From a virus, in IMG/VR virus record IMGVR_UViG_3300020473_002016, positions 1 to 23,881 of that record: 23,881 bases of DNA; one strand, given 5' to 3'. The translations under genes were made by a program, and so were the position numbers. Positions 1 through 17,623 of the stretch are shown here, one piece after another. Below the pieces are notes generated by a model. It ran no database searches and was not told the DNA's origin. It worked only from the letters and a program-made list of their open reading frames with translations. Each line of letters begins with the position of its first letter. Position 1 is the first letter of the stretch.

Positions 1-70
1 TGATATTAAAATTGGAATTGCCTGTACATCGTTGACAGGGGACAGTTCAGTTCTTGTGGAGAATCTTTGA
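1..70 (+). CDS. C-terminal tail of an unidentified protein (5' end outside window)
   Basis: A reading frame is open from position 2 to a TGA at 68-70, giving 22 residues that end in S-S-V-L-V-E-N-L. The rest lies upstream of the window. The stop overlaps the TTG start of the next gene (TTGA), the tight junction seen elsewhere here, so this is probably a real gene end in the same operon rather than a leader. I do not recognise the family from so short a tail. By position it probably belongs to the glycan cassette, but that is inference only. Confidence 0.55.
   Translation, partial: DIKIGIACTSLTGDSSVLVENL
58..61 (+). promoter_or_regulatory. Shine-Dalgarno GGAG that fixes the TTG start at 67
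   Basis: GGAG lies five nucleotides before TTG 67, inside the end of the upstream gene. No ATG or GTG nearby in this frame is as well placed, and starting here keeps the N-terminal I-P-A-R-G-G-S-K nucleotide-binding motif of the cytidylyltransferase intact. Confidence 0.6.
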
Positions 71-1485
71 AAATAATCTGTGTAATACCCGCAAGGGGTG
101 GAAGTAAACGACTTTCTAGAAAAAATATTCACCCATTGATGGGAAAGCCTCTAATTTTGTGGTCAGTTGAGGCTTGTCTAAAGAGTAAATATCTTAATTA
201 TGATAATATATTTGTTAGTACAGAAGATTCAGAAATTAGAGATATTTCCAAAGCAGCGGGCATAAAGGTAATTGATAGACCAGAAGAATTATCAAAAGAT
301 GACGTCTGGACGCAGGACGTTCTTTCACATGCAAAAGACTTTTTACTGAATACAGGAGAAGATTTTGACATAATGGTGAGAATTCAAGCAAATTCTCCAC
401 AAATTCAATCAGAAAAGATCGATGAGTGTATTGAAAAGCTAATTAATAAAAAATTGTGGGAAGTGTTTACTGTTGATAGTGAAGGAGTCGAAGACGCTTC
501 AATTCATGCACTATTAAAAAAATGCATCGATCAAAAAGCCTTGAGTGTTTATAAGGGCGTTGTTGCTACCGACTATGTAGACGTTCACACACTAGCTGAC
601 ATTAAAAGAGTTGAGAAAATAATTTCTCTAAAGCACGAAGCTCAAGATGAATATGATATAACAAAAGATAAAATTATTGATATTTCAAAAGATTTTTCTA
701 AAAAAATAGAGACATTTTTAAAAAATAAAAAATACGAGATAATAGAAGGATCACTCCAGGGATTCCCACCCATTTCAGAACTGGATCTTAGAGAGTGGCA
801 CTGGCACTTCATGTCTGCGTGGCATTGGAATCTTAGATTTTCACTTGTTGACAGGTTTGAAAAATCACTATCGAGTCATAGTGTCTTCTTTAGCGAGATT
901 AGTAAAAAAACAGCTAGAGGAGAAAGGGTAAAGATATTAGACCTCTGTAGTGGCTTTTGTGTCTACTGGCCTATCTTGTGTGAAATTGGAGTTTCAGAAA
1001 TTGTCGGAATAGATCTCTACGACGACAGGGAGAAAATAGTAACAAAAGCCACTTTGCAGGATTCATCAATTAGATTGCAGACAATTACTATGACAATTAG
1101 ATCAATGATTTCTAGTAACCTAAACAACGATATCTTTCAGCTAAGTAGAAAATCTATTGAAAGCCTTTTTGAAGCAATGGAAAGGCTATGGAGCAATTCA
1201 TTTGAAATGTTTTGTAGAAGCCGTCAGGCATATTATGATACGTCTAGGGAGCTAGTTGATAACTTTACACGTAGTGATTTTCAATATAGGCTATTTAGAG
1301 GAAATATTGACTCTATAGATCTATACCTGTCACCTGATGACGAACAATCTTTTGATGGAATAATGTGTATCGCCCCAGGGGGTAAGAAGGAAACTCTTGG
1401 TACAGGTGTATCTAGAGAGACACTTGACTATATTACTAAAAAATATCTAAAGAAAGGCGGGGTTACTGCCTTTGATGGAAGGTAA
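67..1485 (+). CDS. CMP-sialate synthetase-like cytidylyltransferase fused to a methyltransferase-like domain
   Basis: Residues 1-185 look like an acylneuraminate/KDO cytidylyltransferase (NeuA family), which activates a nine-carbon sugar with CTP to give the CMP-sugar donor. The N-terminal signature IPARGGSKRLSRKN (7-20) binds the nucleotide, G-K-P-L-I is at 26-30, and S-T-E-D is at 51-54. The usual Q-P-T-S-P loop reads R-I-Q-A-N-S-P (105-111). The expected D-x-D near the end of the domain reads D172-V-H174-T, so one metal-binding Asp may be His. Residues 285-320 hold a Rossmann SAM-like motif, I-L-D-L-C-S-G-F (290-297) followed by G-I-D-L (314-317), and the C-terminus has Y-L-K-K-G-G. The family is normally about 225-230 aa, so this 472-aa protein is a fusion. 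The linker at 190-285 is unassigned. Start is TTG with a good GGAG; NeuB lies about 3 kb downstream. The cytidylyltransferase call is firm; the methyltransferase call is moderate. Confidence 0.8.
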   Translation: MKIICVIPARGGSKRLSRKNIHPLMGKPLILWSVEACLKSKYLNYDNIFVSTEDSEIRDISKAAGIKVIDRPEELSKDDVWTQDVLSHAKDFLLNTGEDFDIMVRIQANSPQIQSEKIDECIEKLINKKLWEVFTVDSEGVEDASIHALLKKCIDQKALSVYKGVVATDYVDVHTLADIKRVEKIISLKHEAQDEYDITKDKIIDISKDFSKKIETFLKNKKYEIIEGSLQGFPPISELDLREWHWHFMSAWHWNLRFSLVDRFEKSLSSHSVFFSEISKKTARGERVKILDLCSGFCVYWPILCEIGVSEIVGIDLYDDREKIVTKATLQDSSIRLQTITMTIRSMISSNLNNDIFQLSRKSIESLFEAMERLWSNSFEMFCRSRQAYYDTSRELVDNFTRSDFQYRLFRGNIDSIDLYLSPDDEQSFDGIMCIAPGGKKETLGTGVSRETLDYITKKYLKKGGVTAFDGR

Positions 1486-1487
1486 GT

Positions 1488-2135
1488 GTGAAAGTTAGTG
1501 TTATTATAACCTGCTATAATCTAGAGCCCTATATATCAAGGGCAATAAATAGCTGTCTAAATCAAACAATGAATGAAGATGACTATGAGGTGATCGTTGT
1601 AGACGATATGTCAACTGATAAGTCATGGAGCGTTATCGAGAGATTTGGAAGCTTAGTTGTTCCAATTAGGATGAAAGAAAATTTAGGAGTTTCTGCTGCT
1701 TCAAATGCTGGAATTAGAGAGGCATCGGGAAAATATGTTGTACGTGTCGATGGGGATGACTTTATAAATAAGAACTTTCTTCTCTCAATGTATGAAGTTT
1801 TAAAGTGGAACGATGATATCGGGTTCGTTTATTGTGACCACATAGTTGTTAATGAAGATCTTGAAAGAAGACAGTCATTAAATACACTTGACACCCTTCT
1901 TGATCACGGAGCGGGCGTCATGTTTCGAAAGAGGTATCTAGAGTCAATAGGCCTGTACGATGAAAATTTAAGAAATCGAGAAGATTATGATCTTATCTTA
2001 AGATATATTAAAAATTTTAATGGATATCATCTAAGGTTGCCATACTACAGGTACTTTAAGAGATCAGGAAGTCTCTCTTCTTTAAAAGATGAGCGCAAGA
2101 TTATTAAGAATCAAATAGACAGCAGGGAAAAATAA
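1488..2135 (+). CDS. Family 2 (GT-A) glycosyltransferase
   Basis: This is a GT-A fold enzyme that moves a sugar from a nucleotide-sugar donor onto a growing glycan, probably in the cytoplasm. The N-terminus K-V-S-V-I-I-T-C-Y-N (2-11) is the classic GT2 opening. V-V-D-D (37-40) and S-T-D follow, N-L-G-V-S-A-A-S-N-A-G is near 65-75, and the metal/nucleotide site R-V-D-G-D-D-F is at 86-92. At 215 aa it is little more than the catalytic domain, with no membrane segment. The start is GTG, two nucleotides after the previous stop, with GGAAGG just before it, so it is co-transcribed with the cytidylyltransferase fusion. Donor and acceptor cannot be read from the sequence. It could be the transferase for the nonulosonate, but no known sialyltransferase motif is visible. 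Confidence 0.88.
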   Translation: MKVSVIITCYNLEPYISRAINSCLNQTMNEDDYEVIVVDDMSTDKSWSVIERFGSLVVPIRMKENLGVSAASNAGIREASGKYVVRVDGDDFINKNFLLSMYEVLKWNDDIGFVYCDHIVVNEDLERRQSLNTLDTLLDHGAGVMFRKRYLESIGLYDENLRNREDYDLILRYIKNFNGYHLRLPYYRYFKRSGSLSSLKDERKIIKNQIDSREK

Positions 2136-2136
2136 T

Positions 2137-2961
2137 ATGAATCTGAAAAATATCTCAAATATAAGATACGACAGGCACAAAGACGTTCTTTTCTTTGACT
2201 TTAAAGACAAGTCTGGAAAGGTCACAACACACCACCTAGAGCAAAAAAGAAGCATCGACCACGCCCTAGATGTCTTAAAACACAATAGGGTAGCTACTTC
2301 AGATGATCATGCCCAGCTCCTTTATTCTCTAATATTATTTTTTAGGTGCAAATCTATAGTTGAGATAGGGGTTGCCTATGGTGACACCACAAGGTGGCTC
2401 TGTCAGGCTGCCGATGCAATTGGCTCAATTGTGCATGGATTCGATTGCTGGGAAGACCACGGTATTTCAAAAATAAAGTATGGTCAAAAATCATCCAAGG
2501 AGGATGTTGAAAAATATTTAAAATATTTTCATAATGTTGAAAACTTTCTACTAACAAAGATCAACACAATAAGTGAGAATGATAAGTTTATCGATCATAT
2601 TAAAAAATTAGCTCCTTTAGATTTTGTATTTATTGATGGTGATCACTCTTTGGAGGGCGTATCATCTGACTTCGAATCAATATATCCGTACCTTTCAGAC
2701 CAGGCAATTGTAGTATTTCATGATACCCTCATCTGCAATGGATCGAGACAGTTTGCACATGAGCTAAGGACAAAATATTTTGATAATACATTTGATATAG
2801 TTGATATGCCCTATGGAAATTTTGAACAAAGGTGTGGACTCACAGTCCTCTTTAAGCGTAGCTTTTCTAAGTGTAATGTAAAAATAATTGAAGACTGCGG
2901 TGCCACCCTATCAGATTCTGAAATTTATGAAAATGAAAAAAGACTAATAGGTCGAGATTAG
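2137..2961 (+). CDS. Class I SAM-dependent methyltransferase (Methyltransf_24-like)
   Basis: The 274-aa protein has a Rossmann SAM-binding motif, I-V-E-I-G-V-A-Y-G-D-T-T (74-85), the acidic ribose-contacting G-F-D-C-W (101-105), and a second core strand F-V-F-I-D-G-D-H (163-170) typical of Methyltransf_24 / cephalosporin-hydroxylase-like enzymes. These often sit in polysaccharide clusters and O-methylate sugars. I-V-V-F-H-D-T (191-197) completes the fold. The gene starts one base after the upstream stop and is followed by a 38-nt gap with a TATAATA motif, so it may end one transcription unit. Residues 1-70 are an extra N-terminal region with no family I recognise. The methyl acceptor is unknown; a sugar hydroxyl is the contextual guess. 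Confidence 0.8.
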   Translation: MNLKNISNIRYDRHKDVLFFDFKDKSGKVTTHHLEQKRSIDHALDVLKHNRVATSDDHAQLLYSLILFFRCKSIVEIGVAYGDTTRWLCQAADAIGSIVHGFDCWEDHGISKIKYGQKSSKEDVEKYLKYFHNVENFLLTKINTISENDKFIDHIKKLAPLDFVFIDGDHSLEGVSSDFESIYPYLSDQAIVVFHDTLICNGSRQFAHELRTKYFDNTFDIVDMPYGNFEQRCGLTVLFKRSFSKCNVKIIEDCGATLSDSEIYENEKRLIGRD

Positions 2962-2983
2962 TTTAATTTAATCTCAAATTCTG

Positions 2984-2990
2984 TATAATA
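2984..2990 (+). promoter_or_regulatory. Candidate promoter (TATAATA), possibly late-type
   Basis: The 38-nt gap 2962-2999 contains TATAATA ten bases upstream of the next ATG. The best -35 candidates at 16-18 nt spacing match TTGACA at about three of six positions, so a standard sigma-70 promoter is weak. T4-type late promoters have only a TATA-like element, and a gp55-like sigma is encoded at 11472. Similar motifs occur in the other long gaps. It is short enough to occur by chance in AT-rich DNA. Confidence 0.4.
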
Positions 2991-2999
2991 GAGAGTAAG

Positions 3000-3959
3000 A
3001 TGGTTAGTAATCCTAAAATAACATTTACGTGTGTGACGTATAACAGGGTCACCATGCTAAGGAACCTTCTATTAAGTTTTTCATTGGCCAATAGGGGTTA
3101 TGATAATTTTGAGTGGATGGTTCTTGAGCATGATACGAATGACGGAACTGTTGATTTTTTAAAAAATATCAATAGAGATCCGCTATTTGAACCCTTGAGA
3201 GGGAAGATTAAGGTATTCTACGAGTCAGATCGAGAGTATCTAGATCACTTAAGGTCAAAAGGAATTGATGTTTCAACAAATATGAAAAAGTGTCAAGCTT
3301 TTTTTGGAAAATTTAGAAATGATCTAGTCAGACAGTCTCAAGGAGATATTATAGTAGACCTTCCAGATGACCATCAGTTTATTACAAGAGGAAATTTTTG
3401 CCAGGATATAGTTGATATTTTTAAAGATAGAGTGGAGAAGGTCGGATACGATGATATTGGGACACTGACCTTTAGAACGAGATTTTTATATAGGATAAAA
3501 AAGAAAAATAATTCTCACGATCCAGTTCAAAAAACATCGAGCAATGTTGAATATTTTGTAGTTAATTCGTACAAGACATGTGATGACTGGGGCGCAATAT
3601 CAAGAAGCAATTTTGATAAAATTGGAGGATACACTCAGCTTGAAAATGAAACTAGTGAAATAATTGAAAAATGGAATAATACAGACTACTATGTTCATCA
3701 CTACGATACAATGATGAAAAAGACAAAGGATGCAGGATTAAAGAAGATAATGACAAAAGTTCCAATAGTTCACGACTGCATAAATGATTCAATAGCTGGA
3801 CAGATAAATAAGGGAAGGCTTAGCATGGCATTTCCAATCTTTAATAAAGATGACGTTAAAAAAAGACTAGGGCACCTTGAGAGGTGTACAGGAATTCATG
3901 AGTTTGAAAGAATTTCTGTAAAAATGAAACAAGAAGTATCGAATAAGGAGGCAAATTAG
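3000..3959 (+). CDS. GT2-like glycosyltransferase
   Basis: This 319-aa protein begins I-T-F-T-C-V-T-Y-N-R (7-16), the opening strand of family 2 GT-A glycosyltransferases, followed by R-N-L-L-L-S-F (21-27). F-E-W-M-V-L-E-H-D (37-45) takes the place of the usual V-D-D-x-S. A D-x-D-like acidic cluster, D-I-I-V-D-L-P-D-D-H, is at 116-125, where metal and donor phosphate should bind. The insert between the first two motifs and the cluster is longer than in the GT2 at 1488. The central part (D-D-W-G-A-I-S-R near 195-203) resembles the acceptor-side region of GT-A enzymes. The start ATG has only a weak purine-rich site (GAGAG). Sugar specificity is unknown. The FkbM methyltransferase one base downstream suggests they act on one glycan. 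Confidence 0.7.
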   Translation: MVSNPKITFTCVTYNRVTMLRNLLLSFSLANRGYDNFEWMVLEHDTNDGTVDFLKNINRDPLFEPLRGKIKVFYESDREYLDHLRSKGIDVSTNMKKCQAFFGKFRNDLVRQSQGDIIVDLPDDHQFITRGNFCQDIVDIFKDRVEKVGYDDIGTLTFRTRFLYRIKKKNNSHDPVQKTSSNVEYFVVNSYKTCDDWGAISRSNFDKIGGYTQLENETSEIIEKWNNTDYYVHHYDTMMKKTKDAGLKKIMTKVPIVHDCINDSIAGQINKGRLSMAFPIFNKDDVKKRLGHLERCTGIHEFERISVKMKQEVSNKEAN

Positions 3960-3960
3960 C

Positions 3961-4746
3961 ATGAAGTTTGATAAGAATGTAGATCCTGAGCTTATAGCTG
4001 AGTATATGGAAGTACAAGAAAGAAAGAAGGTATTAAAGAATCTTCTTGGTGAAGCCTTTAGCAGTGACTTTTGTAATCTTGAGTTTTCTAAAATTTTATC
4101 TAGTGTGGGTGCGAATAGTGAAAGTGTAATATTGGATCTAGGTGCAAACATAGGGCAGCAAATTAAAGATACAATAGATATTGGTGCAACAATACATGCC
4201 TTTGAGCCGCATCCGGTGATTTTTGACTTACTGGTAAGAGGCTACGGAGAGTATGAGAATGCTATTTTATTGAATGCAGCAGCTGGTGCAAGTCGTGGAA
4301 AGTTTAGACTATTTTATAAGGGCAACGCGGAAGACGTGAATGGAGGCGCAACGCTGCTTCCCTGGAAGGTTACAGGCGGAGATAACGTTATTGATAGAAT
4401 GAAAAAAGATTCTACATCTAAGTTCGCAGACGTTGACTGCTATAATATCTCAGAATATATTGAAAACTTAGGAAAGAAAGTTAAAATTCTTAAGATTGAC
4501 GTTGAAGGTCTTGAATATGCCATTCTTGACAACTTAATGAAGACAGGTCAGATCCACAATATTGAATACATTCTATTCGAAGATCACGCTGATTGCTTTA
4601 TGTATAAGACATGGTTTGATATAGCAATTAAATCAATAAACAGATTTAAAAATTCTCAAATAGAGACAAAAATTATGGTCTGGAATGGGTTTAGTGAAAA
4701 TAATGATCAAATACTATCACAAATTATGTCTAAAAACCAGGTATAA
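3961..4746 (+). CDS. FkbM-family SAM methyltransferase
   Basis: The 261-aa protein carries the FkbM hallmarks: SAM motif I V-I-L-D-L-G-A-N-I-G-Q (56-66), H-A-F-E-P-H-P (79-85) after the second strand, and I-L-K-I-D-V-E-G-L-E (176-185). FkbM enzymes O-methylate hydroxyl groups, often on sugars of surface polysaccharides or natural products. The start is very clear, with AAGGAGG nine to ten bases before ATG inside the end of the glycosyltransferase gene. It sits directly before the nonulosonate synthase. A role in methyl-capping or decorating the glycan made by the neighbouring transferases is likely but inferred. Confidence 0.88.
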   Translation: MKFDKNVDPELIAEYMEVQERKKVLKNLLGEAFSSDFCNLEFSKILSSVGANSESVILDLGANIGQQIKDTIDIGATIHAFEPHPVIFDLLVRGYGEYENAILLNAAAGASRGKFRLFYKGNAEDVNGGATLLPWKVTGGDNVIDRMKKDSTSKFADVDCYNISEYIENLGKKVKILKIDVEGLEYAILDNLMKTGQIHNIEYILFEDHADCFMYKTWFDIAIKSINRFKNSQIETKIMVWNGFSENNDQILSQIMSKNQV

Positions 4747-4749
4747 GAT

Positions 4750-5799
4750 ATGACTACTAGCGACCTGTGGGAAAGAATTACATCGGGAGAACCCTTTTTT
4801 ATTGCCGAAGCGGGGGTAAATCATTTGGGCTCTTTAGATCTTGGTGAAAGATTGATTAGAGAGGCTGCTGAAGCAGGTGCGCATGCAATTAAGTTTCAAT
4901 CATATAAGGCAAAAAACCTTTGCACAAAGAATGCCCCTAGATTTTGGGACTGGGATGGTGAGGTAGAGAAGGATGGGTCACAATTTGATTCTTATTCTCA
5001 CCTAGACTCTTTTGGAGAGGCTGATCACGCTGAGCTAAAGCGGCTGTGTGACTACTACAACATAGAATTTATGTCCACACCTTTTGACGATGAGGCAACT
5101 GACTACCTTGATAGGGTTGGAATTAATGCATATAAAATAGCTTCTTGTGACTTAACAAATCATCCGCTTCTTAGAAATGTCGCATCAAAGAAAAAAATAG
5201 TTATGCTTTCTACGGGTGCGGGATCAATTGAAGAAATAAAGTCTGCAGTTAAAATTTTAAGTGAGGAAACAGATAAGATTGTCGTTATGCATTGTAATCT
5301 TAAATATCCAACAGGTGATCATGAGATAAATTTAAGAATGATAGAGCACCTAAAAGAAGAGTTTCCAGACTGCGTCATCGGGCTTTCAGATCACACAATG
5401 AATCTTTGGACTCCGGCATTCGCATATTCACTTGGTGCAACAGTGTTTGAAAAGCACTACACAGTAGATAAAACGCTCGATAAGAGCGCTGATCACTGGC
5501 TCTCAGTTGACCCATCAGAAGTTAGTCAAATAATTGATAATATAAACTTAGCAGTCACACTCTTAGGATCCCGTGAGAAAAAGTGCACCAAGAGCGAAGA
5601 GCGTGCAAAGCTATATGCCAGAAGAAGTATAGTAGCTATTTCAGATATCAAAATGGGCGAAGTACTTACTGATCAAAATTTATCTTGTAAGAGACCTGGG
5701 ACGGGTCTTTCACCAACAATGCTTCACAAAGTTTTAGGAAGAATTGCTGCTAGAGATATCTCTGATGATCAAATTTTAACAATGGAGGATATAAAATGA
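4750..5799 (+). CDS. neuB: NeuB-type nonulosonic (sialic) acid synthase
   Basis: This full-length 349-aa enzyme condenses phosphoenolpyruvate with a six-carbon amino sugar (ManNAc or a relative) to give a nine-carbon acid. The TIM-barrel domain shows F-F-I-A-E-A-G-V-N-H (16-25), K-F-Q-S-Y-K (48-53), Y-K-I-A-S (128-132), the metal-binding histidines H215 in G-L-S-D-H and H236 in E-K-H-Y-T, and E234. A C-terminal SAF/antifreeze-like domain (about 285-349) has R-R-S-I-V-A (291-296) and R-P-G-T-G-L-S-P (315-322), whose Arg reaches into the partner active site. All expected catalytic positions are present, so it should be active. Substrate (sialic, legionaminic or pseudaminic type) cannot be fixed by eye. 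With the cytidylyltransferase at 67 it forms the core of a CMP-nonulosonate route; the precursor steps are not in this window. Confidence 0.93.
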   Translation: MTTSDLWERITSGEPFFIAEAGVNHLGSLDLGERLIREAAEAGAHAIKFQSYKAKNLCTKNAPRFWDWDGEVEKDGSQFDSYSHLDSFGEADHAELKRLCDYYNIEFMSTPFDDEATDYLDRVGINAYKIASCDLTNHPLLRNVASKKKIVMLSTGAGSIEEIKSAVKILSEETDKIVVMHCNLKYPTGDHEINLRMIEHLKEEFPDCVIGLSDHTMNLWTPAFAYSLGATVFEKHYTVDKTLDKSADHWLSVDPSEVSQIIDNINLAVTLLGSREKKCTKSEERAKLYARRSIVAISDIKMGEVLTDQNLSCKRPGTGLSPTMLHKVLGRIAARDISDDQILTMEDIK

Positions 5800-6125
5800 A
5801 TCTAAAAGAACTAACACTAAATTATTTTAAAACTTTTTCTAGTCAAGACCCAGACGGCTTAAGAGGACTTTTTTCTAATGATGTATACCTTAGGGATTGG
5901 GAAATTAACGTGGAGGGAATTGATGGAGTAGTTGCTGCAAACAAAGGAATATTTGACTCAGTTGACACTATCAATGTTGTTCCAGTTAAAATATGTGAAA
6001 CTGGAAACATGACAATCTCTGAAATAGAAGTCCACGTCAATAGTACTGAAGTTTTAAAAGTTGTTGACGTTATTGAGTTTGACAGTGAGGGAAAGATAGT
6101 GGCTGTAAGAGCTTATAAGGGATAA
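5796..6125 (+). CDS. NTF2-like / SnoaL-type small protein
   Basis: The 109-aa product has the usual size of a single NTF2-like cone-fold domain. N-terminal helices (L-T-L-N-Y-F-K-T-F-S) are followed by G-L-R-G-L-F-S-N-D-V (22-31), I-E-G-type turns and an alternating beta-rich second half ending V-V-D-V-I-E-F-D-S-E-G-K-I-V-A-V-R-A-Y. That ending (V-D-x-F-x-F-D-x-x-G-K-I) is characteristic of SnoaL/ketosteroid-isomerase-like proteins. The ATG overlaps the NeuB stop (ATGA) and has GGAGG upstream, so the two are translationally coupled. Members act as isomerases, hydrolases or binding subunits; which one applies here is unknown. Pairing with NeuB suggests a step in, or support of, nonulosonate synthesis. 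Confidence 0.7.
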   Translation: MNLKELTLNYFKTFSSQDPDGLRGLFSNDVYLRDWEINVEGIDGVVAANKGIFDSVDTINVVPVKICETGNMTISEIEVHVNSTEVLKVVDVIEFDSEGKIVAVRAYKG

Positions 6126-6128
6126 AAG

Positions 6129-6947
6129 TTGTCTTATCTTGGATTCATACAAATGGTAACAACGGCTTATAGCCACATGGATAAGATTAGAGTTCTTGAA
6201 ATAGGGATTGATCAAGGGCATTCTTGCTTCCCAATAGTCCACAATCTCTCAACACTATTTGATGACTTTGAATATGTTGGCATCGACATAAAGGTAAACT
6301 CAAAAATTACAGACGGACTGGCACAAATGTCAGGAATTAGAGTTAGAGACTCCTACGAATGTGTAGACTTTAATGTCTCTATGTACGAGTCAAATAGCCT
6401 TACAATTCTTCCAAAGATACTCAGTTCAAATGAGAAATTTGATATTGTATTTCTTGATGGAGATCACAACTACTTTACTGTCGCACATGAGCTTGAAATA
6501 ATTGAAAAACTGTGCCACCCACATTCAATAATAGTCTGTGATGACTACACAGGGCCTGGATCTACAAGTGATTCATTCTATTCAGAAAGGGAAGAATACA
6601 CTAGTTTAAGACAGAATGTTGAAAACAAACCCATATTTGATCAATTTGGAGAGATCCACATACAACACAACAAAGCAACACCTCCAATTATTGTTAAAAA
6701 TAAAGAAGGAGAGTGCCAAGGTGTTAGACGGGCAATTGATGAATTTATAAGCAGTAGGCCTGGTTGGGACATGAGGACATATACGCTCGAAGGCAGAGTG
6801 GTTGAAGCAGTTGCTCTATACCAGTGTAATTACACATCAATTTCTGATGATCCGTCAATATGCCCAAAGACAGGAGAGAGAACTTATATGACAATAGACT
6901 TTAAGACACCAGAAAAGAAAGAAGGTTGGGGATTTATAAATGATTGA
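6129..6947 (+). CDS. Class I SAM methyltransferase-like protein (Methyltransf_24 type)
   Basis: The 272-aa protein has R-V-L-E-I-G-I-D-Q-G-H-S (21-32) as SAM motif I, Y-V-G-I-D-I (49-54) as the acidic second strand, and F-D-I-V-F-L-D-G-D-H-N-Y (104-115), the same I/L-D-G-D-H block as the methyltransferase at 2137. I-I-V-C-D-D-Y-T-G-P-G (134-144) follows. The C-terminal ~110 residues are distinct and unassigned. The start chosen is TTG 6129 with GGGA upstream; the first in-frame ATG (6153) lacks a ribosome site and would cut the N-terminal helix. The gene overlaps the following dehydrogenase by 8 nt. Probably a sugar O-methyltransferase of the cassette; the substrate is unknown. Confidence 0.75.
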   Translation: MSYLGFIQMVTTAYSHMDKIRVLEIGIDQGHSCFPIVHNLSTLFDDFEYVGIDIKVNSKITDGLAQMSGIRVRDSYECVDFNVSMYESNSLTILPKILSSNEKFDIVFLDGDHNYFTVAHELEIIEKLCHPHSIIVCDDYTGPGSTSDSFYSEREEYTSLRQNVENKPIFDQFGEIHIQHNKATPPIIVKNKEGECQGVRRAIDEFISSRPGWDMRTYTLEGRVVEAVALYQCNYTSISDDPSICPKTGERTYMTIDFKTPEKKEGWGFIND

Positions 6948-7803
6948 TACGATAGGCATAGTCGGACAGGGATTTGTCGGAGGAGCCCTTAATGCAGGAA
7001 TGAGTCATGCATTTAACATAGTGACATATGATAAGTTTGTAGATGAAAAATCTACATGCGACTCCTTGGAGTCTTTAGTGGAGTGTGCAGACGTTATATT
7101 CGTCTGTCTTCCCACGCCTATGAGAAAAGACGGGTCCTGCGATCTTCGCATTGTTGAGAATACAATTTTTGAAATTGATCAAATCTGCGGAAAGAAAGAA
7201 CACCTTGGGAAAATAGCTGTAATCAAGTCAACAATTCCGCCCGGAACCACACAGAGTCTTAACGATAGGGTGAAATACATTCAAGTAATCTTTAATCCAG
7301 AATTTCTAACTGAGGCAAATGCAGTAGAGGATTTTAAGAATCAGACTAGAATAATAGTCGGCGGACCAAGACCAGGAACATCTGTTGTAAAGAATATCTT
7401 TAGAAAGGCATTTAAACAGACACCCATTGTTAAGACAGGATCTAATACAGCGGAAATGGTCAAATATTTCACTAATTGCTTTCTTGCCACCAAGGTTATT
7501 TTTTCCAATGAGATGAAGCAGATCTGTGAGCCACTTAGCATAGACTATGACAAGGTTGTTGAATATGCACTTTACGATGATAGACTTGGAAAGTCACACT
7601 GGTCGGTTCCAGGCCCTGACGGAAGTATGGGCTTTGGAGGCCATTGTTTTCCAAAGGATTTAAATGCCCTTATTAAGGTAGCAAAGAATAACAGTGTTGA
7701 TCCAAGAATTCTTCGGTGTGTATGGGAAAAGAATCTAGAAGTTAGAGATGAGAATGAACGAGATTGGGAAAGAATGTCTGGTCGAGCTGTTAGTGAAGAT
7801 TGA
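6940..7803 (+). CDS. Short UDP-glucose/GDP-mannose dehydrogenase family protein
   Basis: Enzymes of this family oxidise the C6 hydroxyl of a nucleotide sugar to a carboxylate with two NAD+, giving UDP-glucuronate or similar. Visible: the NAD Rossmann motif G-I-V-G-Q-G-F-V-G (6-14), V-C-L-P-T-P (55-60), K-S-T-I-P-P-G-T-T (96-104), N-P-E-F-L-T-E (119-125), A-E-M-V-K-Y-F-T-N (171-179) with the catalytic Lys175, and G-F-G-G-H-C-F-P-K-D (231-240) with the catalytic Cys236. The NAD domain and central helical domain are complete, but at 287 aa it stops where the usual ~390-440-aa enzyme would begin its C-terminal UDP-binding domain. There is no frameshift remnant: the 41-nt gap after it leads straight to another gene. 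Either a compact functional variant or one needing a partner. Confidence 0.85.
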   Translation: MIDTIGIVGQGFVGGALNAGMSHAFNIVTYDKFVDEKSTCDSLESLVECADVIFVCLPTPMRKDGSCDLRIVENTIFEIDQICGKKEHLGKIAVIKSTIPPGTTQSLNDRVKYIQVIFNPEFLTEANAVEDFKNQTRIIVGGPRPGTSVVKNIFRKAFKQTPIVKTGSNTAEMVKYFTNCFLATKVIFSNEMKQICEPLSIDYDKVVEYALYDDRLGKSHWSVPGPDGSMGFGGHCFPKDLNALIKVAKNNSVDPRILRCVWEKNLEVRDENERDWERMSGRAVSED

Positions 7804-7832
7804 TAATCGTGTAAAGTATAAGTCTAAAGCAG

Positions 7833-7839: not shown

Positions 7840-7844
7840 ATAAT

Positions 7845-8678
7845 ATGACTGAAAATACTTTTCCAACAGGAAAGCCTCATATTTCATTTTCTGAAGTAAA
7901 GATATGGAAAGAGTGCTCCTGGCGACACAAGCTTATGTATGTTGACAAGATTGACACTTTTGAACCTTCACCCTATCTAGATTTTGGAACAGCTGTTCAC
8001 GAGGGGTGTGAAACTCTTCTTGAGACTAGGAAAGTTGATAAGAAAAAACTTTTTAATGACATTACTTCTGCATGGGAGAAGAATGGATTTGATGATCCAG
8101 CGTGGGTTGAAAGGCAGCCTGGATGGTACAAATATGCCCCAGTAGAGACGTGGTGCCAATGGGCTGAAAATATGTGGGATGAGGTTCCCGATTTTCTAGA
8201 TTCAACTTTTCCCAATTGGGAACCTGTAAAAGCAGAAGAATACCTCTACGAAGAAATTGAGGGAAAGAGTGTAAAATTTAAGGGATTTATTGATGCCATC
8301 ATAAAGGTTCCGAAGAAGCGAGGCGAGGGTTACAACTACTGGATACTCGATTGGAAGACAGCTCAGTCATATGGGTGGCGAAGAGAAAAGAAGCAAAGCC
8401 TCCTAATGACAGCCCAGCTTATTTTATATAAGCATTTTTGGTCTAGAAAGCACTCTGTTCCACTTGCCGATGTTCGATGTGGTTTTATCCTGCTTAAGCG
8501 TGGAGGTAAGCCTGGACGCATCTGTGAGCTTGTTACAGTATCTGTGGGACCTAAGACACTAGAAAAAGGCATCAAGATGATGAATAGCATGATATCTTCT
8601 GTCTATAGGGGAATGTTTTTAAAAAATAGAGACTCTTGCACATACTGTCAGTTTAAAAATACAGAACATTGTACCTGA
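7845..8678 (+). CDS. PD-(D/E)XK nuclease, RecB/Cas4-like, with putative Fe-S cysteines
   Basis: The 277-aa protein shows the RecB-type nuclease motifs in order: G-T-A-V-H-E (48-53) with His52, F-I-D-A-I (149-152) with Asp150, I-L-D-W-K-T-A (167-173) with Asp169 and Lys171, and Q-L-I-L-Y (191-195) with Gln191 and Tyr195. One cysteine near the N-terminus (C24, before S-W-R-H-K-L) and three near the C-terminus (C265, C268, C276) match the layout of iron-sulphur Cas4/AddB-type nucleases, although the last spacing (seven residues) is longer than the usual five. Such enzymes degrade or trim DNA ends and in phages are linked to recombination or host DNA breakdown. No cas1/cas2 or CRISPR is nearby, so a CRISPR role is not supported. 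It sits between two sugar gene groups but has gaps on both sides, so it may be its own transcription unit. Confidence 0.88.
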   Translation: MTENTFPTGKPHISFSEVKIWKECSWRHKLMYVDKIDTFEPSPYLDFGTAVHEGCETLLETRKVDKKKLFNDITSAWEKNGFDDPAWVERQPGWYKYAPVETWCQWAENMWDEVPDFLDSTFPNWEPVKAEEYLYEEIEGKSVKFKGFIDAIIKVPKKRGEGYNYWILDWKTAQSYGWRREKKQSLLMTAQLILYKHFWSRKHSVPLADVRCGFILLKRGGKPGRICELVTVSVGPKTLEKGIKMMNSMISSVYRGMFLKNRDSCTYCQFKNTEHCT

Positions 8679-8685
8679 TTTACTT

Positions 8686-8691: not shown

Positions 8692-8692
8692 T

Positions 8693-8728: not shown

Positions 8729-9982
8729 ATGACAAAAAAGAAGAAAGTTCTGATTTTATCAGATCACGCTCTTTCTACATCAGGTGTAGGCACACAGACC
8801 AGACACCTTGTAAATGGATTGCTAACCAGGCACCCAGGTGAGTGGACATTTAGGCAATTCGGTGCAGCACTAAAGCATACTGACTACAATACAGTTGCTG
8901 TTAGTGAAGATTTTATTATTAAGCCTATTGACGGATTTGGCGACCGAGATTTGATTAGAGTTGCTCTGGCTACTGAGAAGCCTGATTTGCTTCTCATATT
9001 TACAGATCCTCGATTTTTTATATGGCTGTTTGAGATGGAAGATGAAATTCATCAAATATGTCCAATTGCGTGGTGGCATGTATGGGATAACGATCCCTAC
9101 CCAGACTTTAATCACGTCCTTTATCAATCTACTGATCTTATAAATTGTCATTCTCATATGACGTATGAGTTAATTAAAGACAGGGTTTCATCTAGAATAA
9201 ACTTTATACCTCATGCAGTTCCAAATGAAATATTCTTCCCGCTGGAAGATTCTGTACGTAAATCCTATAAAAAGCAAATTCTAGGCCCAGATAGAGAAGA
9301 CCACTTTATTGCAATTTGGGTAAATAGAAATGCAAAAAGAAAAAGACCCTCAGACGTTGTAGAGTCTTGGAGGGTGTTTCTTGAAAATTTAGAAAAAATT
9401 CACGGTCATCGAAATGCAACTCTAATTATGCACACCGACCCAATGGATCATGAGGGTCCTAATCTAATTAAAAATGTTGAGCTTCAAGGGGTGTCAAATA
9501 ATGTCTACTTCTCTACAGACCGCCTTGATTTTGAAAAAATGAATGTTTTATATAACATTTCTGATGCTTGTATAAACATAAGCTACGCAGAGGGATTTGG
9601 TCTTTCAACACTTGAGGGAATGATGACTGGATGTCCAATAGTCGCTATAAAGACTGGAGGATTGACACGCCAAGTCGTTGATCATGAAGATGGTTCGGAA
9701 AACGGTGTCGCTCTTCCAGTTGAATTTAGGTCACTTGTAGGTTCTCAGGCTGTACCGTTCATCTATGAAGACTATGTTACATGCGAAACTGTTGCTGAGG
9801 GGATTATGAAAATGTATAATCTATCTAGCGAGGAAAGGCTGGAGCTAAGAGAAAAATGTCTAAACTATGTTAAGAAAAATTTTAATATCAATGACACTAT
9901 TGATGAATGGAATAAGACCATGAAAGATCTTTTAGACAATTGGAAAAAAGACTATAAAGCATGGGAATGCTTTACCTTATAG
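8729..9982 (+). CDS. GT4-type (GT-B fold) glycosyltransferase
   Basis: This 417-aa glycosyltransferase has a GT-B fold. The N-terminal domain opens K-V-L-I-L-S-D-H (6-13) with an S-G-V-G-T-Q loop (18-23). The C-terminal donor-binding domain begins near F-I-A-I-W-V-N-R-N-A-K-R-K-R-P (193-207), has L-I-M-H-T (232-236), and carries the family E-x7-E motif A-E-G-F-G-L-S-T-L-E (287-296, Glu288 and Glu296), then G-C-P-I-V-A-I-K-T-G-G. No transmembrane segment is visible. It probably transfers a sugar from a nucleotide donor with retention of configuration. A second GT4 follows after 12 nt, so the two likely act in sequence on one glycan. Donor and acceptor are not readable. Confidence 0.87.
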   Translation: MTKKKKVLILSDHALSTSGVGTQTRHLVNGLLTRHPGEWTFRQFGAALKHTDYNTVAVSEDFIIKPIDGFGDRDLIRVALATEKPDLLLIFTDPRFFIWLFEMEDEIHQICPIAWWHVWDNDPYPDFNHVLYQSTDLINCHSHMTYELIKDRVSSRINFIPHAVPNEIFFPLEDSVRKSYKKQILGPDREDHFIAIWVNRNAKRKRPSDVVESWRVFLENLEKIHGHRNATLIMHTDPMDHEGPNLIKNVELQGVSNNVYFSTDRLDFEKMNVLYNISDACINISYAEGFGLSTLEGMMTGCPIVAIKTGGLTRQVVDHEDGSENGVALPVEFRSLVGSQAVPFIYEDYVTCETVAEGIMKMYNLSSEERLELREKCLNYVKKNFNINDTIDEWNKTMKDLLDNWKKDYKAWECFTL

Positions 9983-9994
9983 GAAATAAATTAG

Positions 9995-11161
9995 ATGAAA
10001 AATGTTATTATTAGGGCTCCCCTCCTATCGTGTAGCGGCTATGGGGTTCACTCCAGGCAGATATTTAAGTGGCTCTTAACTAGAAAAGATTTTAATGTAG
10101 TTACTCAAGTTGTATCGTGGGGCACGACTAGCTGGATGATAGATCCAAATCTAGAGGATGGCCTTATTGGGGAGGTCATGAATAGATCTAGGCCCCTTAG
10201 CGATAATGCAGATATCACATTTCAAGTTCAACTTCCTGATGAATGGGATCCAAAGTTAGGAAAGTTTAATGTTGGTGTTAGCGCCTTTGTTGAGACAGAC
10301 AGGTGTAATCCAGACTGGATTAAGAGAATTGATTTAATGGATCTAGTAATCGTCCCAACAGAGCATGTAAGAGATACCATTATGAGATCAGGATCTCCGA
10401 GGACGCCTGTTGTGGTTATTCCAGAATCATATCTAGAGGAGATTGACCAAAATCCTGAGCCACTTCCTTTAGAACTGGATACAAAGTTTAATTTCCTAGT
10501 CTTGGGACAGTTTACCGGAAATGACCCGTATAATGATAGAAAGAACCTTCTCTGCACCCTTAAGTGGATGTTTGAAGTATTTAAGGATGATCCAGACGTT
10601 GGAATTATCATTAAGACAAACCACGGAAGAGGGACAAAGATAGACAGAGAAATTACCAGACAAAAGGTTGTCTCCGTAATTAATGAAATTAGAAAAGGGC
10701 CATATCCTAAGCTTCACTTATTACATGGAAATCTTACAAGCTCAGAAATTGCATCACTCTACAGGGTAGAGTCAATTCGATGTCTAGTCAGCCTAACAAG
10801 AGGAGAGGGTTTCGGATTGCCCATCCTTGAGGCAGCTTCTTCAGGAATTCCTGTAATTGCGACCAATTGGTCAGGTCATTTAGATTTTTTAAATTTAGGA
10901 AAATTTATACCTATAAACTATAGTATCGTTGAAATACCCAGCAACAGGGTTGATGGAAGAATCTTTGTTGACGGCCTGCGATGGGCAGATCCTGATGAAA
11001 ATGACTTTAAGAAGAAAGTTAAAAAATTTAGAGATAATTATTTAAAGCCCAGTCAGTGGGCTTCTGAACTTTCTTCTCGACTTAAAGACACATTTTCCCA
11101 GAGTGCCATCAACATGAAGTATGATGCTTTAATTGATAGTGAGCATTGGAGAAAAGATTGA
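9995..11161 (+). CDS. GT4-type glycosyltransferase
   Basis: This 388-aa GT-B enzyme opens N-V-I-I-R-A-P-L-L-S (3-12) with G-Y-G-V-H-S-R (15-21), has V-S-A-F-V-E-T-D (95-102) and V-I-V-P-T-E-H (118-124) in the acceptor domain, and F-N-F-L-V-L-G-Q-F (165-173) at the start of the donor domain. The E-x7-E motif is G-E-G-F-G-L-P-I-L-E (270-279, Glu271 and Glu279), followed by G-I-P-V-I-A-T. It shares architecture with the gene upstream but the sequences differ clearly, so they are not a recent duplication. The gene ends in a TTGA overlap with the next, which links the glycosyltransferases to the gp55 region by translation. Substrate unknown. Confidence 0.87.
   Translation: MKNVIIRAPLLSCSGYGVHSRQIFKWLLTRKDFNVVTQVVSWGTTSWMIDPNLEDGLIGEVMNRSRPLSDNADITFQVQLPDEWDPKLGKFNVGVSAFVETDRCNPDWIKRIDLMDLVIVPTEHVRDTIMRSGSPRTPVVVIPESYLEEIDQNPEPLPLELDTKFNFLVLGQFTGNDPYNDRKNLLCTLKWMFEVFKDDPDVGIIIKTNHGRGTKIDREITRQKVVSVINEIRKGPYPKLHLLHGNLTSSEIASLYRVESIRCLVSLTRGEGFGLPILEAASSGIPVIATNWSGHLDFLNLGKFIPINYSIVEIPSNRVDGRIFVDGLRWADPDENDFKKKVKKFRDNYLKPSQWASELSSRLKDTFSQSAINMKYDALIDSEHWRKD
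11148..11151 (+). promoter_or_regulatory. Shine-Dalgarno GGAG supporting TTG 11158
   Basis: GGAG ends six bases before TTG 11158. An upstream in-frame TTG at 11146 overlaps this site and has no ribosome site of its own, so 11158 is preferred. The resulting TTGA junction with the stop at 11159-11161 copies the junction at 67-70. Confidence 0.55.
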
Positions 11162-11472
11162 ATTGGGCTCTAATAGCGATTTCTGCTGGTCTATTTTTGT
11201 CTCTTTGTGTTTCCACTTATTTCAACTATAAATTTGGATTAATATTAATTCAACTAGAAGACGGAATAGAAGAATCACTTGATATTTTAGATCAAAAGTA
11301 TGCATCGATGAGTAAAATCTTAGAAAGACCTGTATTCTTTGACAGTGTCGAGGTCAGACAGGTAATTAGAGACATAAGAGACTCCAGAAGTGCTGTTCTC
11401 TATGTTGCAAATATTCTTGGATCTATTGATGAAAGTGCTGTCTCTGACTTGGAAAAAACGAGGCCTAAATAA
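11158..11472 (+). CDS. Small protein with one N-terminal membrane segment, function unknown
   Basis: Starting at TTG 11158 the product is 104 aa (108 aa from TTG 11146). The N-terminus, W-A-L-I-A-I-S-A-G-L-F-L-S-L-C-V, is a strong membrane helix or uncleaved signal anchor, with no lipobox cysteine in the right setting. The remaining ~75 residues are charged and probably helical (L-E-D-G-I-E-E-S-L-D-I-L-D), ending with a basic tail. I do not recognise a family. It lies between the glycosyltransferases and the gp55-like sigma gene, sharing a TAATG overlap with the latter, so the two are translated together. A holin or other membrane role would fit the shape but nothing specific supports it. Confidence 0.65.
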   Translation: MNWALIAISAGLFLSLCVSTYFNYKFGLILIQLEDGIEESLDILDQKYASMSKILERPVFFDSVEVRQVIRDIRDSRSAVLYVANILGSIDESAVSDLEKTRPK

Positions 11473-12215
11473 TGAAAAAAGGAAAGAAAAAATTTGTCAA
11501 GATCAGAAGACGGAGGGGCAAGGGAAAGAGAAATCTTTACTTTCACCAGGGAACTCATGACGCAATAGTCAAGTTTCAATCACTAGAGTGCACAAGCGGC
11601 AGGGAGAAGCTATACGTCTCAGAAATCTTTCCTGCTTTTGATAAGTTGGTTGAAAATCTAATCTTTATTCACGGATTTACTTCAACTCATAGTTCCTTTG
11701 AAGATCTTAAAAATGACTGCGTGGTCTTTCTCTATGAAACTCTAGATAAGTTTGATCACACTCGGGGTACAAAGGCATTCTCTTACTTTAACGTTGTTGC
11801 CAAGAACTGGCTGATTATAAAAAGCAAGCAGAGGTCAAAGCAAATTAGAAGGCAAGTAAGCCTAGATGATCCCATGTCCATTAGCAGAAGAGACATGAGT
11901 TCAATAGAGTCATATAAGATAGTACCGGCTCAAGATACTGAAATGATCAAGAGAGAGTCAATTGAAAACCTATTTTCTCTAATGGTAGAGATTAAGAAAA
12001 AACTGTCTGGAGAAAATGAGATTGCATGCATTGATGCAATTATAACCCTATTTGAGAAAATAGATGATATTGACCTCCTTAATAAGCGTGCAATATTTGT
12101 CTATCTTCGCGATATATCAAGTCTTAATCCAAAACAGCTATCAATTGCCATGTCGTCAATAAGAAAGCACTATAAATCCCTCGTAAAACAGGGGGAGTTT
12201 GATATATTCTTTTAG
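11472..12215 (+). CDS. 55: T4 gp55-like late-transcription sigma factor
   Basis: The 247-aa protein looks like the T4 late sigma factor, which replaces sigma-70 on host RNA polymerase and reads TATA-type late promoters. The core, residues 55-120, is sigma region-2-like: F-D-K-L-V-E-N-L-I (56-64), F-E-D-L-K-N-D (76-82) and L-D-K-F-D-H-T-R-G-T-K-A-F-S-Y-F (91-106), the last being the diagnostic K-F-D-x-x-x-G-x-x-F-x-x-Y-F pattern, then V-V-A-K-N-W-L. The N-terminus is very basic (K-K-G-K-K-K, R-R-R-R-G-K-G-K-R). The last residues, G-E-F-D-I-F-F, form an acidic/hydrophobic tail like the sliding-clamp-binding tails of T4 late proteins; that is inference. It is longer than T4 gp55 (185 aa). Start ATG overlaps the previous stop by one base (TAATG). 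Confidence 0.82.
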   Translation: MKKGKKKFVKIRRRRGKGKRNLYFHQGTHDAIVKFQSLECTSGREKLYVSEIFPAFDKLVENLIFIHGFTSTHSSFEDLKNDCVVFLYETLDKFDHTRGTKAFSYFNVVAKNWLIIKSKQRSKQIRRQVSLDDPMSISRRDMSSIESYKIVPAQDTEMIKRESIENLFSLMVEIKKKLSGENEIACIDAIITLFEKIDDIDLLNKRAIFVYLRDISSLNPKQLSIAMSSIRKHYKSLVKQGEFDIFF

Positions 12216-12594: not shown

Positions 12595-14010
12595 ATGCCC
12601 TTCAATCCACTAGAGAGAAATCAGACACCGCAAGCTAGCAGAATCTTTCACACAGTTGTGGTTGTCGACTTTATAGCAAACCCAGCGACACTTAGTGCGT
12701 CAGATCGAGCATCACTATCTCTTGGAAACGTTGCCGGAAGTAAGGGGATTATTAACTCTCGGTACATTAATAGAATGCCAAGAAATAGCATAATAGGATA
12801 CAGAATCTCAGATAGATCTGGAAATCTTCAACAGGCTGAAATATTTTACCCTTTTTTCTCACCACATCTCTCTCTTCCCATCAAGCCCGGTGAGCAAGTC
12901 TGGGTGATATACGAGACTGTTGGTGGAAGCAGCTCCCGAGCGCAAGGGTCTCTCGGGTATTGGGTTTCGAGAAAGCATGTTGACGATCAAGTTGACGATA
13001 TAAATTACACACATGCTTCTAGGATGGATTTTCATAGGTCTAGAGCCCAGCAAGGTCGAGGGTCTAGGGAAAGAACTTCATCATCTGCACAAGAGGATGG
13101 ATCTCATATTTTGCAAAATCACATTCCCGGATTTCCAAATGGAGATGGATCCGGAAATTTAATTCTTCCAGGGCCCAACGCTTTTGAGAAAATTATTAAG
13201 AGATCTAGAGCGATGGGTCGAAGAGGTCATGCAAATCAGTTTATCGGAGAACCTGTTCCAAGAATCACCAAGACTGTCGGTGATCTCGTTCTTCAGGGTT
13301 CAAACAATGCCAGCATAGTCCTCGGAACAGAGCACACAAGAGACAGTTCACCCTACTTATCTTCATTTCCATCTAGAATGGCTGCCACGGGCCAGGGTGC
13401 AATTGATATCTGTGCCGGACGTGCCCAAACAGACAGCACAGCTGCAGCTCACGTTGCTCATGGAATTATAAATGAAAGAGGGTATAGAGAATCATCTAAG
13501 TATCCGACAAAGGAGCTGAGGGCTTTTAAGTCTAAGGCCAATGCTGCAGAAGGGTCTATGGATCCTGAAAACGATCTCTCTAGAATCTACGTCTCAATGG
13601 CAACTGATCCAGACAATATGTTTAGCATTGATACTTCTGGAATGTCGAGAACAGAAGTCTCAGCTCCAGGAGAGCCTTCAATTGTCTTAAAGACTGATCA
13701 TATGAGACTAGTTGCTAGGCAAGACTTAAAGATTGTTATTGGGGATTCTGGGACTGGGTCAGCAGTTGTTCTTAAGGCCGATGGAAATATTGTCTTTATA
13801 CCGGGTCCTGAAGGTGTCATAAAGCTTGGAGGAGACGATGCTGACAAGGCCCTAATAGTAGCTCCGCCAACAAAGACATTGACCGTTGACGGAAGTGTCA
13901 GCCTGCCTCTCCCGCTTGTTACGATTGCTGGAGGCACAATAGGCGAGGCTGAAGAGGTGGCTGATACGTTCAATTTTACCACGTTTGCTACAAAGGTGCT
14001 GGTTAAGTAA
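12595..14010 (+). CDS. 5: gp5-like baseplate hub / spike OB-fold protein
   Basis: The 471-aa protein resembles the T4 gp5 spike of marine T4-like phages. The N-terminal OB-fold region (about 17-130) shows H-T-V-V-V-V-D-F (19-26), Y-P-F-F-S-P-H-L-S-L-P (85-95) and P-G-E-Q-V-W-V-I-Y-E (98-107), then G-Y-W-V-S-R (121-126). A polar Ser/Arg/Gly-rich stretch (145-200) follows. The C-terminal part (about 365-430) has M-F-S-I-D-T-S-G and K-A-D-G-N-I-V-F-I-P-G-P-E-G-V-I-K-L-G-G, a beta-rich stalk/spike region. T4 gp5 has a lysozyme domain in the middle; none of its catalytic pattern is visible here. It would sit under the tail tube and pierce the cell envelope. It starts two bases after the gp16-like gene and overlaps the next gene by TAATG. 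Confidence 0.75.
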   Translation: MPFNPLERNQTPQASRIFHTVVVVDFIANPATLSASDRASLSLGNVAGSKGIINSRYINRMPRNSIIGYRISDRSGNLQQAEIFYPFFSPHLSLPIKPGEQVWVIYETVGGSSSRAQGSLGYWVSRKHVDDQVDDINYTHASRMDFHRSRAQQGRGSRERTSSSAQEDGSHILQNHIPGFPNGDGSGNLILPGPNAFEKIIKRSRAMGRRGHANQFIGEPVPRITKTVGDLVLQGSNNASIVLGTEHTRDSSPYLSSFPSRMAATGQGAIDICAGRAQTDSTAAAHVAHGIINERGYRESSKYPTKELRAFKSKANAAEGSMDPENDLSRIYVSMATDPDNMFSIDTSGMSRTEVSAPGEPSIVLKTDHMRLVARQDLKIVIGDSGTGSAVVLKADGNIVFIPGPEGVIKLGGDDADKALIVAPPTKTLTVDGSVSLPLPLVTIAGGTIGEAEEVADTFNFTTFATKVLVK

Positions 14011-15266: not shown

Positions 15267-15281
15267 TTATTTATTTGGGCA

Positions 15282-15289
15282 TATATTTA
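15282..15289 (+). promoter_or_regulatory. Candidate late promoter (TATATTTA) before gp25
   Basis: The 42-nt gap 15267-15308 is AT-rich and holds TATATTTA, close to the T4 late element TATAAATA, 19 nt before the gp25 start and just ahead of the gp25 ribosome site (GGGAG, 15295-15299). This would be a natural place for a new late transcript covering the baseplate genes. The motif is short and could be chance. Confidence 0.33.
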
Positions 15290-15308
15290 GTAAAGGGAGA
15301 AAGATAAG

Positions 15309-15785
15309 TTGGCAGCAAGAAGTTTTAAAAGTGTCGGTGACAAAGTCTCAGATATCAAGTTTAATAGGCCTGTCCCACAAGTCCCGCCTGTGGGAATAGT
15401 CACACCTTTAAAATTCGGAACAGGCAGATCTGGTCTTTTTGAAATGAATTTTGAAATTGAGAAACAGGTTCAAGATAACTTAAGAAATTTACTTTTAACA
15501 AACCACGGTGAAAGACTTGGTCACTATGACTTTGGTGCAAACTTAAGAGAACTTACAACAGAAAGGCTGTCAAATAAAGATTTTGATAATGAGGCAATGA
15601 TAAGAATAAGAGATGCTGTTAAAAAATATATTCCCTTTGTTGAGCTATCTTCTTTTGAGTCATCATTTAACAAGAATCCCACAACAGATTCTATTGCTGA
15701 AATTAGTATAAAAATATTTTATAATATTCCAAAACTACAAGTGACGAATAAGGGAATAGAGGTTATTCTATACTGCATAGGGTAG
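15309..15785 (+). CDS. 25: Baseplate wedge protein gp25 (GPW/gp25 family)
   Basis: This 158-aa protein has the gp25 core: N-x-E-I-E-K-Q-V-Q-D-N-L-R-N-L-L-L-T-N (48-65), G-E-R (67-69), Y-D-F-G-A-N-L (73-79), followed by I-R-I-R-D-A-V-K-K-Y-I-P (98-109) and a terminal beta sheet E-I-S-I-K-I-F-Y (131-138), E-V-I-L-Y-C-I-G. gp25 joins gp6 and gp53 in the wedge core and starts sheath assembly in contractile tails. Residues 1-40 are a polar N-terminal extension beyond the family core. The start is TTG with GGGAG nine bases before it; no better in-frame ATG exists before the core. gp6 follows three bases later, as in other contractile baseplates. Confidence 0.9.
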   Translation: MAARSFKSVGDKVSDIKFNRPVPQVPPVGIVTPLKFGTGRSGLFEMNFEIEKQVQDNLRNLLLTNHGERLGHYDFGANLRELTTERLSNKDFDNEAMIRIRDAVKKYIPFVELSSFESSFNKNPTTDSIAEISIKIFYNIPKLQVTNKGIEVILYCIG

Positions 15786-15788
15786 GAA

Positions 15789-17618: not shown

Positions 17619-17623
17619 TAGAA

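Follow-up and report, generated by a model that had tools for sequence, protein, structure and literature searches.

The large and variable clusters of sugar-nucleotide and glycosyltransferase genes in T4-like marine phages, known as lipopolysaccharide (LPS) biosynthesis clusters of the P-SSM2 type, are among the described systems nearest to the locus treated here (PMC7824862). Epimerase/dehydratases, kinases and glycosyltransferases are listed in that description, and neither NeuB nor sialic acid is mentioned in it. Our locus lies in viral DNA of the IMG/VR record IMGVR_UViG_3300020473_002016, which is linear and which, at its entire length of 23,881 bp, is the window analyzed in this work; position 1 falls inside the gene island in question. 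Unlike the P-SSM2-type clusters as described there, the window carries a cassette (positions 1-7803) with a NeuB-family synthase, a CTP transferase and a GT2 glycosyltransferase as its core, beside a constant pair of GT4 glycosyltransferases. We read this cassette, tentatively and with a confidence that stops just short of even, as one version of a swappable nucleotide-sugar module at a fixed glycan locus of a clade of uncultured T4-like phages, and we favor a virion acceptor for its product.

Other known systems share single traits with the window. A marine viral genome with Gmd, WcaG, ManC, NeuA, KdsA and WaaG (PMC5332604) likewise has a cytidine monophosphate (CMP)-sugar synthetase in a surface-sugar set; it differs in that KdsA is named rather than NeuB, and it is a single genome. 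The sps pathway of Bacillus subtilis for legionaminic acid (PMC7439481) resembles the window in combining a NeuB-family synthase and a cytidylyltransferase without NeuC, and in using a transferase outside the known sialyltransferase families, whereas the window has no genes of the SpsC/SpsD/SpsG type and SpsE (1vli) lies outside the phage NeuB clade. Virion glycosylation has a precedent in glycans on mycobacteriophage capsid and tail tube proteins (cited in PMC12619734), which concern other phages and, as far as they are presented there, no NeuB. Sugar clusters and virion glycosylation in phages and a NeuA in a virus have thus been reported before (PMC7824862, PMC5332604, PMC12619734); the open literature searched, subscription papers and preprints aside, yielded neither an account of a NeuB cassette kept within a phage lineage nor one of the cartridge arrangement. 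Such a lineage-held module beside a constant glycosyltransferase pair is a testable model for phage glycan variation and, if true, would connect nonulosonic acids with the biology of phages. Contigs with lipopolysaccharide-type genes were discarded in at least one survey of viral metabolic genes across the oceans (PMC11360552), and given this exclusion, cassettes of such a kind are a likely blind spot.

A fixed locus with exchangeable sugar genes

Nine plus-strand open reading frames (ORFs) form a single run from 67 to 7803, separated by gaps of about 0-50 bp or joined by short overlaps (Table 1). A preliminary description of this DNA had placed a full-length NeuB and a CMP-sugar-synthetase-type enzyme in a tight same-strand run together with three methyltransferase genes and an NTF2-like protein, and Pfam searches and the ORF layout bear this out. 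By scanning IMG/VR with the window NeuB and its alignment we found 13 contigs with a full-length NeuB at 56-87% identity, including contigs of 235,681 bp and 125,024 bp. Some ten IMG/VR contigs (36-235 kb) share the gene order of the window, which in most of them reads X1-X2-X3-X4-cytidylyltransferase-(methyltransferase)-GT2a-NeuB-dehydrogenase-(SDR)-PDDEXK-GT4a-GT4b-sigma-baseplate, where X1-X4 are four conserved unannotated genes and PDDEXK is a PD-(D/E)XK exonuclease; the window has three additional genes between GT2a and NeuB. The first 70 bases of the window hold the last codons of X4, with DIKIGIACTSLTGDSSVLVENL-stop matching the DVKIGIACTSMTGDKSILVEDL-stop of X4 in L002 and L003, and therefore the same cassette runs past the contig end.

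A scan with the sigma-like protein gave 80 loci that were kept among the matches listed, 29 of them with at least 9.5 kb upstream, and the frequencies given here for these sampled relatives are rough. The exonuclease, GT4a, GT4b and sigma-like genes were present in 29/29, the SDR gene in 26/29, the dehydrogenase in 15/29 and NeuB in only 3/29. Other islands contain a GDP-mannose dehydratase and a GDP-fucose-synthase-like protein (L214, L200), RmlA-like (dTDP-sugar-type) and aminotransferase genes (L167), or no sugar genes (L146). Since the exonuclease, the GT4 pair and the sigma-like gene are constant and the upstream genes vary among the sampled loci, the GT4 pair is the core of the locus and the upstream sugar supply is an exchangeable accessory module. 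In L141 the corresponding position ahead of the exonuclease is taken, at 2130-6362, by another nonulosonate-type set (PseF-like CTP transferase, oxidoreductase, SDR, SAF-less NeuB).

Because the same gene order recurs in many contigs, misassembly or host contamination was rejected, and the cassette is a phage feature, as the preliminary description had it. That it is a passing host-derived island of no use to the phage, or an assembly product after all, is very improbable: its accessory distribution among the sampled relatives and the frequent exchange of glycan genes would suit such an origin, but the viral NeuBs form a clade of their own with a long internal history, and the ORFs are intact, at 63-87% identity and in the same order, with some ten contigs in agreement.

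The NeuB synthase

In an alignment to 1xuu, the window NeuB keeps the active-site residues E20, K48, K129, H215, H236, D248 and R315. The metal, phosphoenolpyruvate and sugar residues in the active site of Neisseria meningitidis SiaC, which we take to be E25, H215, H236, D247 and R314, have their counterparts in E20, H215, H236, D248 and R315, invariant across six phage NeuBs. The best NCBIfam model was N-acetylneuraminate synthase (TIGR03569), and the pseudaminate synthase equivalog TIGR03586 scored 258.1 bits vs a cut-off of 340.25.

In a tree of 85 sequences, from which long-branch rows were left out and into which SpsE (1vli) was put, the window NeuB falls within a 50-row clade (bootstrap 100, Shimodaira-Hasegawa-like approximate likelihood ratio test 99) with NeuC in none of its neighborhoods. 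Nested in it, the 17 viral rows group together as a clade (100/99); this viral branch is old and virus-only. The 50-row clade includes neither SiaC nor PseI nor B. subtilis SpsE, and the NeuC and legionaminic contexts fall in a separate one. Because NeuB groups with NeuC-free and viral-only clades and not with characterized sialic, legionaminic or pseudaminic synthases, "sialic-acid-like", the term of the preliminary description, names a class and not a product, which cannot be read exactly from the sequence; the phage glycan cassette with NeuB stands. A classical sialic or legionaminic route was discarded in view of the NeuC-free relatives and the position of NeuB outside those clades. The lack of NeuC is nevertheless compatible with a nonulosonate, since B. 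subtilis reaches legionaminic acid via SpsG and not NeuC (PMC7439481).

The sister-clade bacterial clusters (Acidobacteriota, Campylobacter concisus, Chlorobium, Desulfovibrio, gammaproteobacterium AG-447-O13) have NeuBs about 38-49% identical to that of the phage and resemble the window in that homologues of GT2a, X2, X3 or X4 occur near NeuB in some. They differ in their SpsF-type cytidylyltransferase and, in several, in aminotransferase and PseG-like genes: the cellular sister NeuBs often adjoin PseG-like and SpsF-like genes, and some a DegT aminotransferase and an iron-dependent alcohol dehydrogenase. DegT aminotransferase genes were found in only two contigs of the phage clade.

Predicted sugar activation and transfer

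The enzyme described earlier as a cytidylyltransferase is one in its N-terminal part (about residues 1-205 of 472); the same ORF also carries a fused methyltransferase-like domain (about 235-472), which has no Pfam hit; in relatives its homologues are genes of their own (MTc). No close relative of the entire fused protein was confirmed by a scan. The N-terminal nucleotide-binding motifs RGGSKxxxxKN and QxxSP are intact, and the closest solved structures are NeuA and KdsB, with a match that spans the N-terminal 130 residues. In the window and its relatives the enzyme lacks about 35 residues present in bacterial NeuAs, among them the RQ..P..NGaiY stretch, and the DxD metal motif is DVH, not DID, so that His replaces one metal-site Asp. 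Because of this shortening and substitution, activation of the sugar by CTP is only probable, and the sugar bound may be unusual. In L004, a SAF-less second NeuB-like protein fused to a cytidylyltransferase (6831-8492, 553 aa) adjoins the ordinary NeuB.

The product of the locus might be a different 2-keto-3-deoxy acid, of other chain length or an unusual amino-ulosonate, instead of a classical nonulosonate. The NeuC-free clade with its viral-only subclade, the gene company of the bacterial clade members and the shortening of the cytidylyltransferase all point in this direction, but the active-site residues of the NeuB family are kept, the top NCBIfam model is N-acetylneuraminate synthase and B. 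subtilis makes legionaminic acid without NeuC, and we consider this alternative unlikely.

Among the window proteins searched with Pfam, no member of the known sialyltransferase (CMP-sugar transferase) families was found. GT2a lies close to NeuB throughout the phage clade and is near NeuB in several bacteria too; judged by gene position alone, it is the best candidate nonulosonate transferase. Of two GT2 enzymes proposed earlier this one is clear, and the second (3000..3959) is a weak match below the cut-off that shares 31% identity with an L006 protein.

The conserved upstream genes

The preliminary description had sought the six-carbon precursor in the host or in upstream genes. UDP-N-acetylglucosamine (UDP-GlcNAc) 2-epimerase/NeuC (PF02350) was detected in 0/8 relatives, and over the cut-off in none of ten, including the contigs of 125 and 235 kb; the relatives do have X1-X4 ahead of the cytidylyltransferase. 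Searches of Pfam and PDB with the X1, X3 and X4 sequences were uninformative. The predicted structure of X1 (mean predicted local distance difference test, pLDDT, 89.5) has a GT-B fold, and UDP-GlcNAc 2-epimerases or their relatives account by name for 13 of its first 14 PDB matches, the best with E 5e-10, about 12% identity and a template-modeling score of about 0.6. Since 2-epimerases rank at the top and glycosyltransferases and TagF lower, X1 may be, according to this model, either the precursor enzyme sought or a transferase. X2 has weak nucleotidyltransferase matches below the cut-off, and a G..SDLDF motif like that of X2 is visible by eye in X3. The X4 model (pLDDT 82) matches the polysaccharide deacetylases 3qbu and 3s6o, and its C-terminal beta domain has weaker, unrelated structural matches.

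In a marine gammaproteobacterial single-cell genome, NeuB and NeuA have homologues of X2 and X3 beside them; near NeuB, X4 homologues occur in an actinobacterial genome and in one from the Holosporaceae that also has a complete legionaminic-type set. These bacterial neighborhoods tie the X2, X3 and X4 families to nonulosonate clusters. X4-type deacetylase-fold proteins, unnamed in Pfam, were seen beside bacterial legionaminic-type/NeuB genes at L050 13940-15298 and L080 11741-12913. In the marine gammaproteobacterium AG-447-O13 (L054, 2931-16210), two NeuBs, a KdsC-like phosphatase, a phosphoheptose-isomerase-like gene and X3 and X2 homologues stand together.

Proposed pathway and acceptor

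We infer the following order of steps. NeuB, going by homology and active-site residues, would join phosphoenolpyruvate to a six-carbon amino sugar or a relative of it, yielding an acid of the nonulosonic type, which the short cytidylyltransferase, on the same grounds, would activate with CTP. The six-carbon precursor would come from the host or from unannotated upstream genes such as the GT-B enzyme X1 of the relatives. GT2a and/or another cassette enzyme would transfer the activated acid, and the chain would be decorated by the methyltransferases and, in relatives, by sulfotransferases as well; the constant GT4 pair would build what the glycans have in common, and the outer sugar would be set by the cassette. 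Sulfotransferase-family genes lie in or beside the island at L002 12220-13871 (minus strand) and L003 613-1506, which suggests a sulfated glycan in these relatives.

The most likely acceptor would be a protein of the phage virion that receives its glycan in the cytoplasm, because the cassette proteins appear soluble, the locus adjoins the baseplate block and genes for an initiating transferase, a flippase or a ligase were not found. No transmembrane stretches were predicted in the proteins of window positions 67-11161, and ten relatives showed no flippase (PF01943), no Wzy/WaaL (PF04932), nor an initiating transferase (PF02397) that scored over its cut-off. A soluble cassette without export genes mildly favors virion glycosylation over the assembly of a host-surface polysaccharide.

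Alternatively, the infected host would be recoated: the activated nonulosonate would be placed on host lipopolysaccharide or capsule with the help of host export machinery and block adsorption of competing phages. This is the customary interpretation of the large cyanophage sugar clusters (PMC7824862), and it was proposed likewise for the marine viral genome that carries NeuA and KdsA among other genes (PMC5332604); the bacterial NeuB relatives are clustered with surface-polysaccharide genes, and diversification of host-surface antigens fits the frequent swapping. The cassette and the ten relatives, however, contain no membrane, carrier-lipid or export gene, and the locus adjoins tail genes and has its constant GT4 pair.

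Several points weigh against the virion-directed module. Glycan, product and acceptor are sequence-based predictions; the NeuB scores 327.3 bits, below the equivalog cut-off of 399.65 for N-acetylneuraminate synthase (TIGR03569), and its clade is without members known to be characterized; the cytidylyltransferase is atypical. The missing NeuC, flippase and ligase are no proof, because the relatives are contigs without completeness estimates. Export genes of the host could be used by the phage.

Soluble glycosyltransferases are also employed in the assembly of surface polysaccharides. Because the contigs are possibly incomplete and host export is usable, we hold to virion glycosylation only tentatively and regard recoating of the host as a real possibility of lower probability. 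A more far-reaching form of the virion model, which we think improbable, would have the virus-only NeuB and the shortened cytidylyltransferases make a nonulosonic acid unknown from cells; the cassette would also supply a deacetylase and a precursor enzyme of the GT-B type, an unrecognized GT2 transferase would load the sugar onto the virion, and this sugar would be one among several interchangeable cartridges of the locus.

Neighboring genes and phage identity

Table 1. Features of the 23,881-bp window and the matches on which their naming is based
Feature	Coordinates	Strand	Basis
X4 3' end, predicted polysaccharide-deacetylase-fold gene	2..70	+	frame 2 = DIKIGIACTSLTGDSSVLVENL-stop
Short CMP-ulosonate-synthetase-type cytidylyltransferase + methyltransferase-like domain	67..1485	+	PF02348 (CTP_transf_3) 93.6 bits
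GT2 glycosyltransferase (GT2a)	1488..2135	+	PF00535 108 bits
Methyltransf_24 methyltransferase	2137..2961	+	Pfam
Divergent GT2-like protein	3000..3959	+	Pfam E=0.006, below cut-off
FkbM-type methyltransferase	3961..4746	+	PF05050, TIGR01444
NeuB-family synthase with SAF domain	4750..5799	+	PF03102 245.5 bits over 1-241/241; SAF 39 bits
SnoaL/NTF2-like protein	5796..6125	+	PF12680 (SnoaL_2)
Methyltransf_24 methyltransferase	6129..6947	+	Pfam
Truncated nucleoside-diphosphate-sugar dehydrogenase	6940..7803	+	PF00984/PF03721 (UDPG_MGDP_dh), phrog_9148, TIGR03026
PD-(D/E)XK exonuclease	7845..8678	+	PF12705
GT4 glycosyltransferase a (core)	8729..9982	+	PF00534, phrog_2170
GT4 glycosyltransferase b (core)	9995..11161	+	PF00534, phrog_2170
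Sigma-factor-like protein	11472..12215	+	PF04542 E=0.01 (below cut-off); conservation across clade
Baseplate/tail block incl. gp25- and gp6-like wedge genes	12595..19165	+	

The UDP-sugar dehydrogenase named earlier keeps the catalytic Cys motif GGHCFPKD but is truncated: it has no UDP-binding domain at its C terminus, and its NAD domain is incomplete. For the methyltransferase at 2137..2961, no orthologue was found in the five closest relatives. The run had been said to lead to two GT4 enzymes and a late sigma gene; the GT4 pair is there, whereas the exonuclease intervenes and the sigma profile stays below threshold. This exonuclease, a constant neighbor of the GT4 pair across the clade, has a weak Cas4-like match. 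The sigma-like protein has homologues in immuto, Mel-JY01 and >590 viral stretches.

The T4-like context is corroborated by homologues of the baseplate-wedge genes gp25 and gp6 (phrog_6 1.2e-18, phrog_43/261), with homologues in immuto as well. No major capsid, portal or terminase gene is among those identified in the window. The nearest cultured relatives are Flavobacterium phage immuto and Microcystis phage Mel-JY01, whose downstream baseplate genes are about 30% identical. The T4 late-promoter motif TATAAATA showed no enrichment.

NeuB in other phage records

NeuB is rare in records of isolated phages, where two phage matches were obtained, one in a single-cell virus of the Kyanoviridae and one in an uncultured phage of 484 kb; a Moritella match in the phage collection was set aside as a bacterial contig. 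A NeuB-like lysis gene has been reported for Stenotrophomonas phage DLP4 (PMC6469090). In the Kyanoviridae virus (L007, MH319754.1), an SDR, an SpsF-like cytidylyltransferase, a DegT aminotransferase and a SAF-less NeuB follow in series at 5376-8834, within a large glycan cluster. In the 484 kb phage (L008, LR756508.1), several small proteins adjoin NeuB at 7265-12086; the two tested match eukaryote-type GT29 sialyltransferases (PF00777, E 8e-32 and 2e-30, far over the cut-off), and the same GT29 motif is visible by eye in two more.

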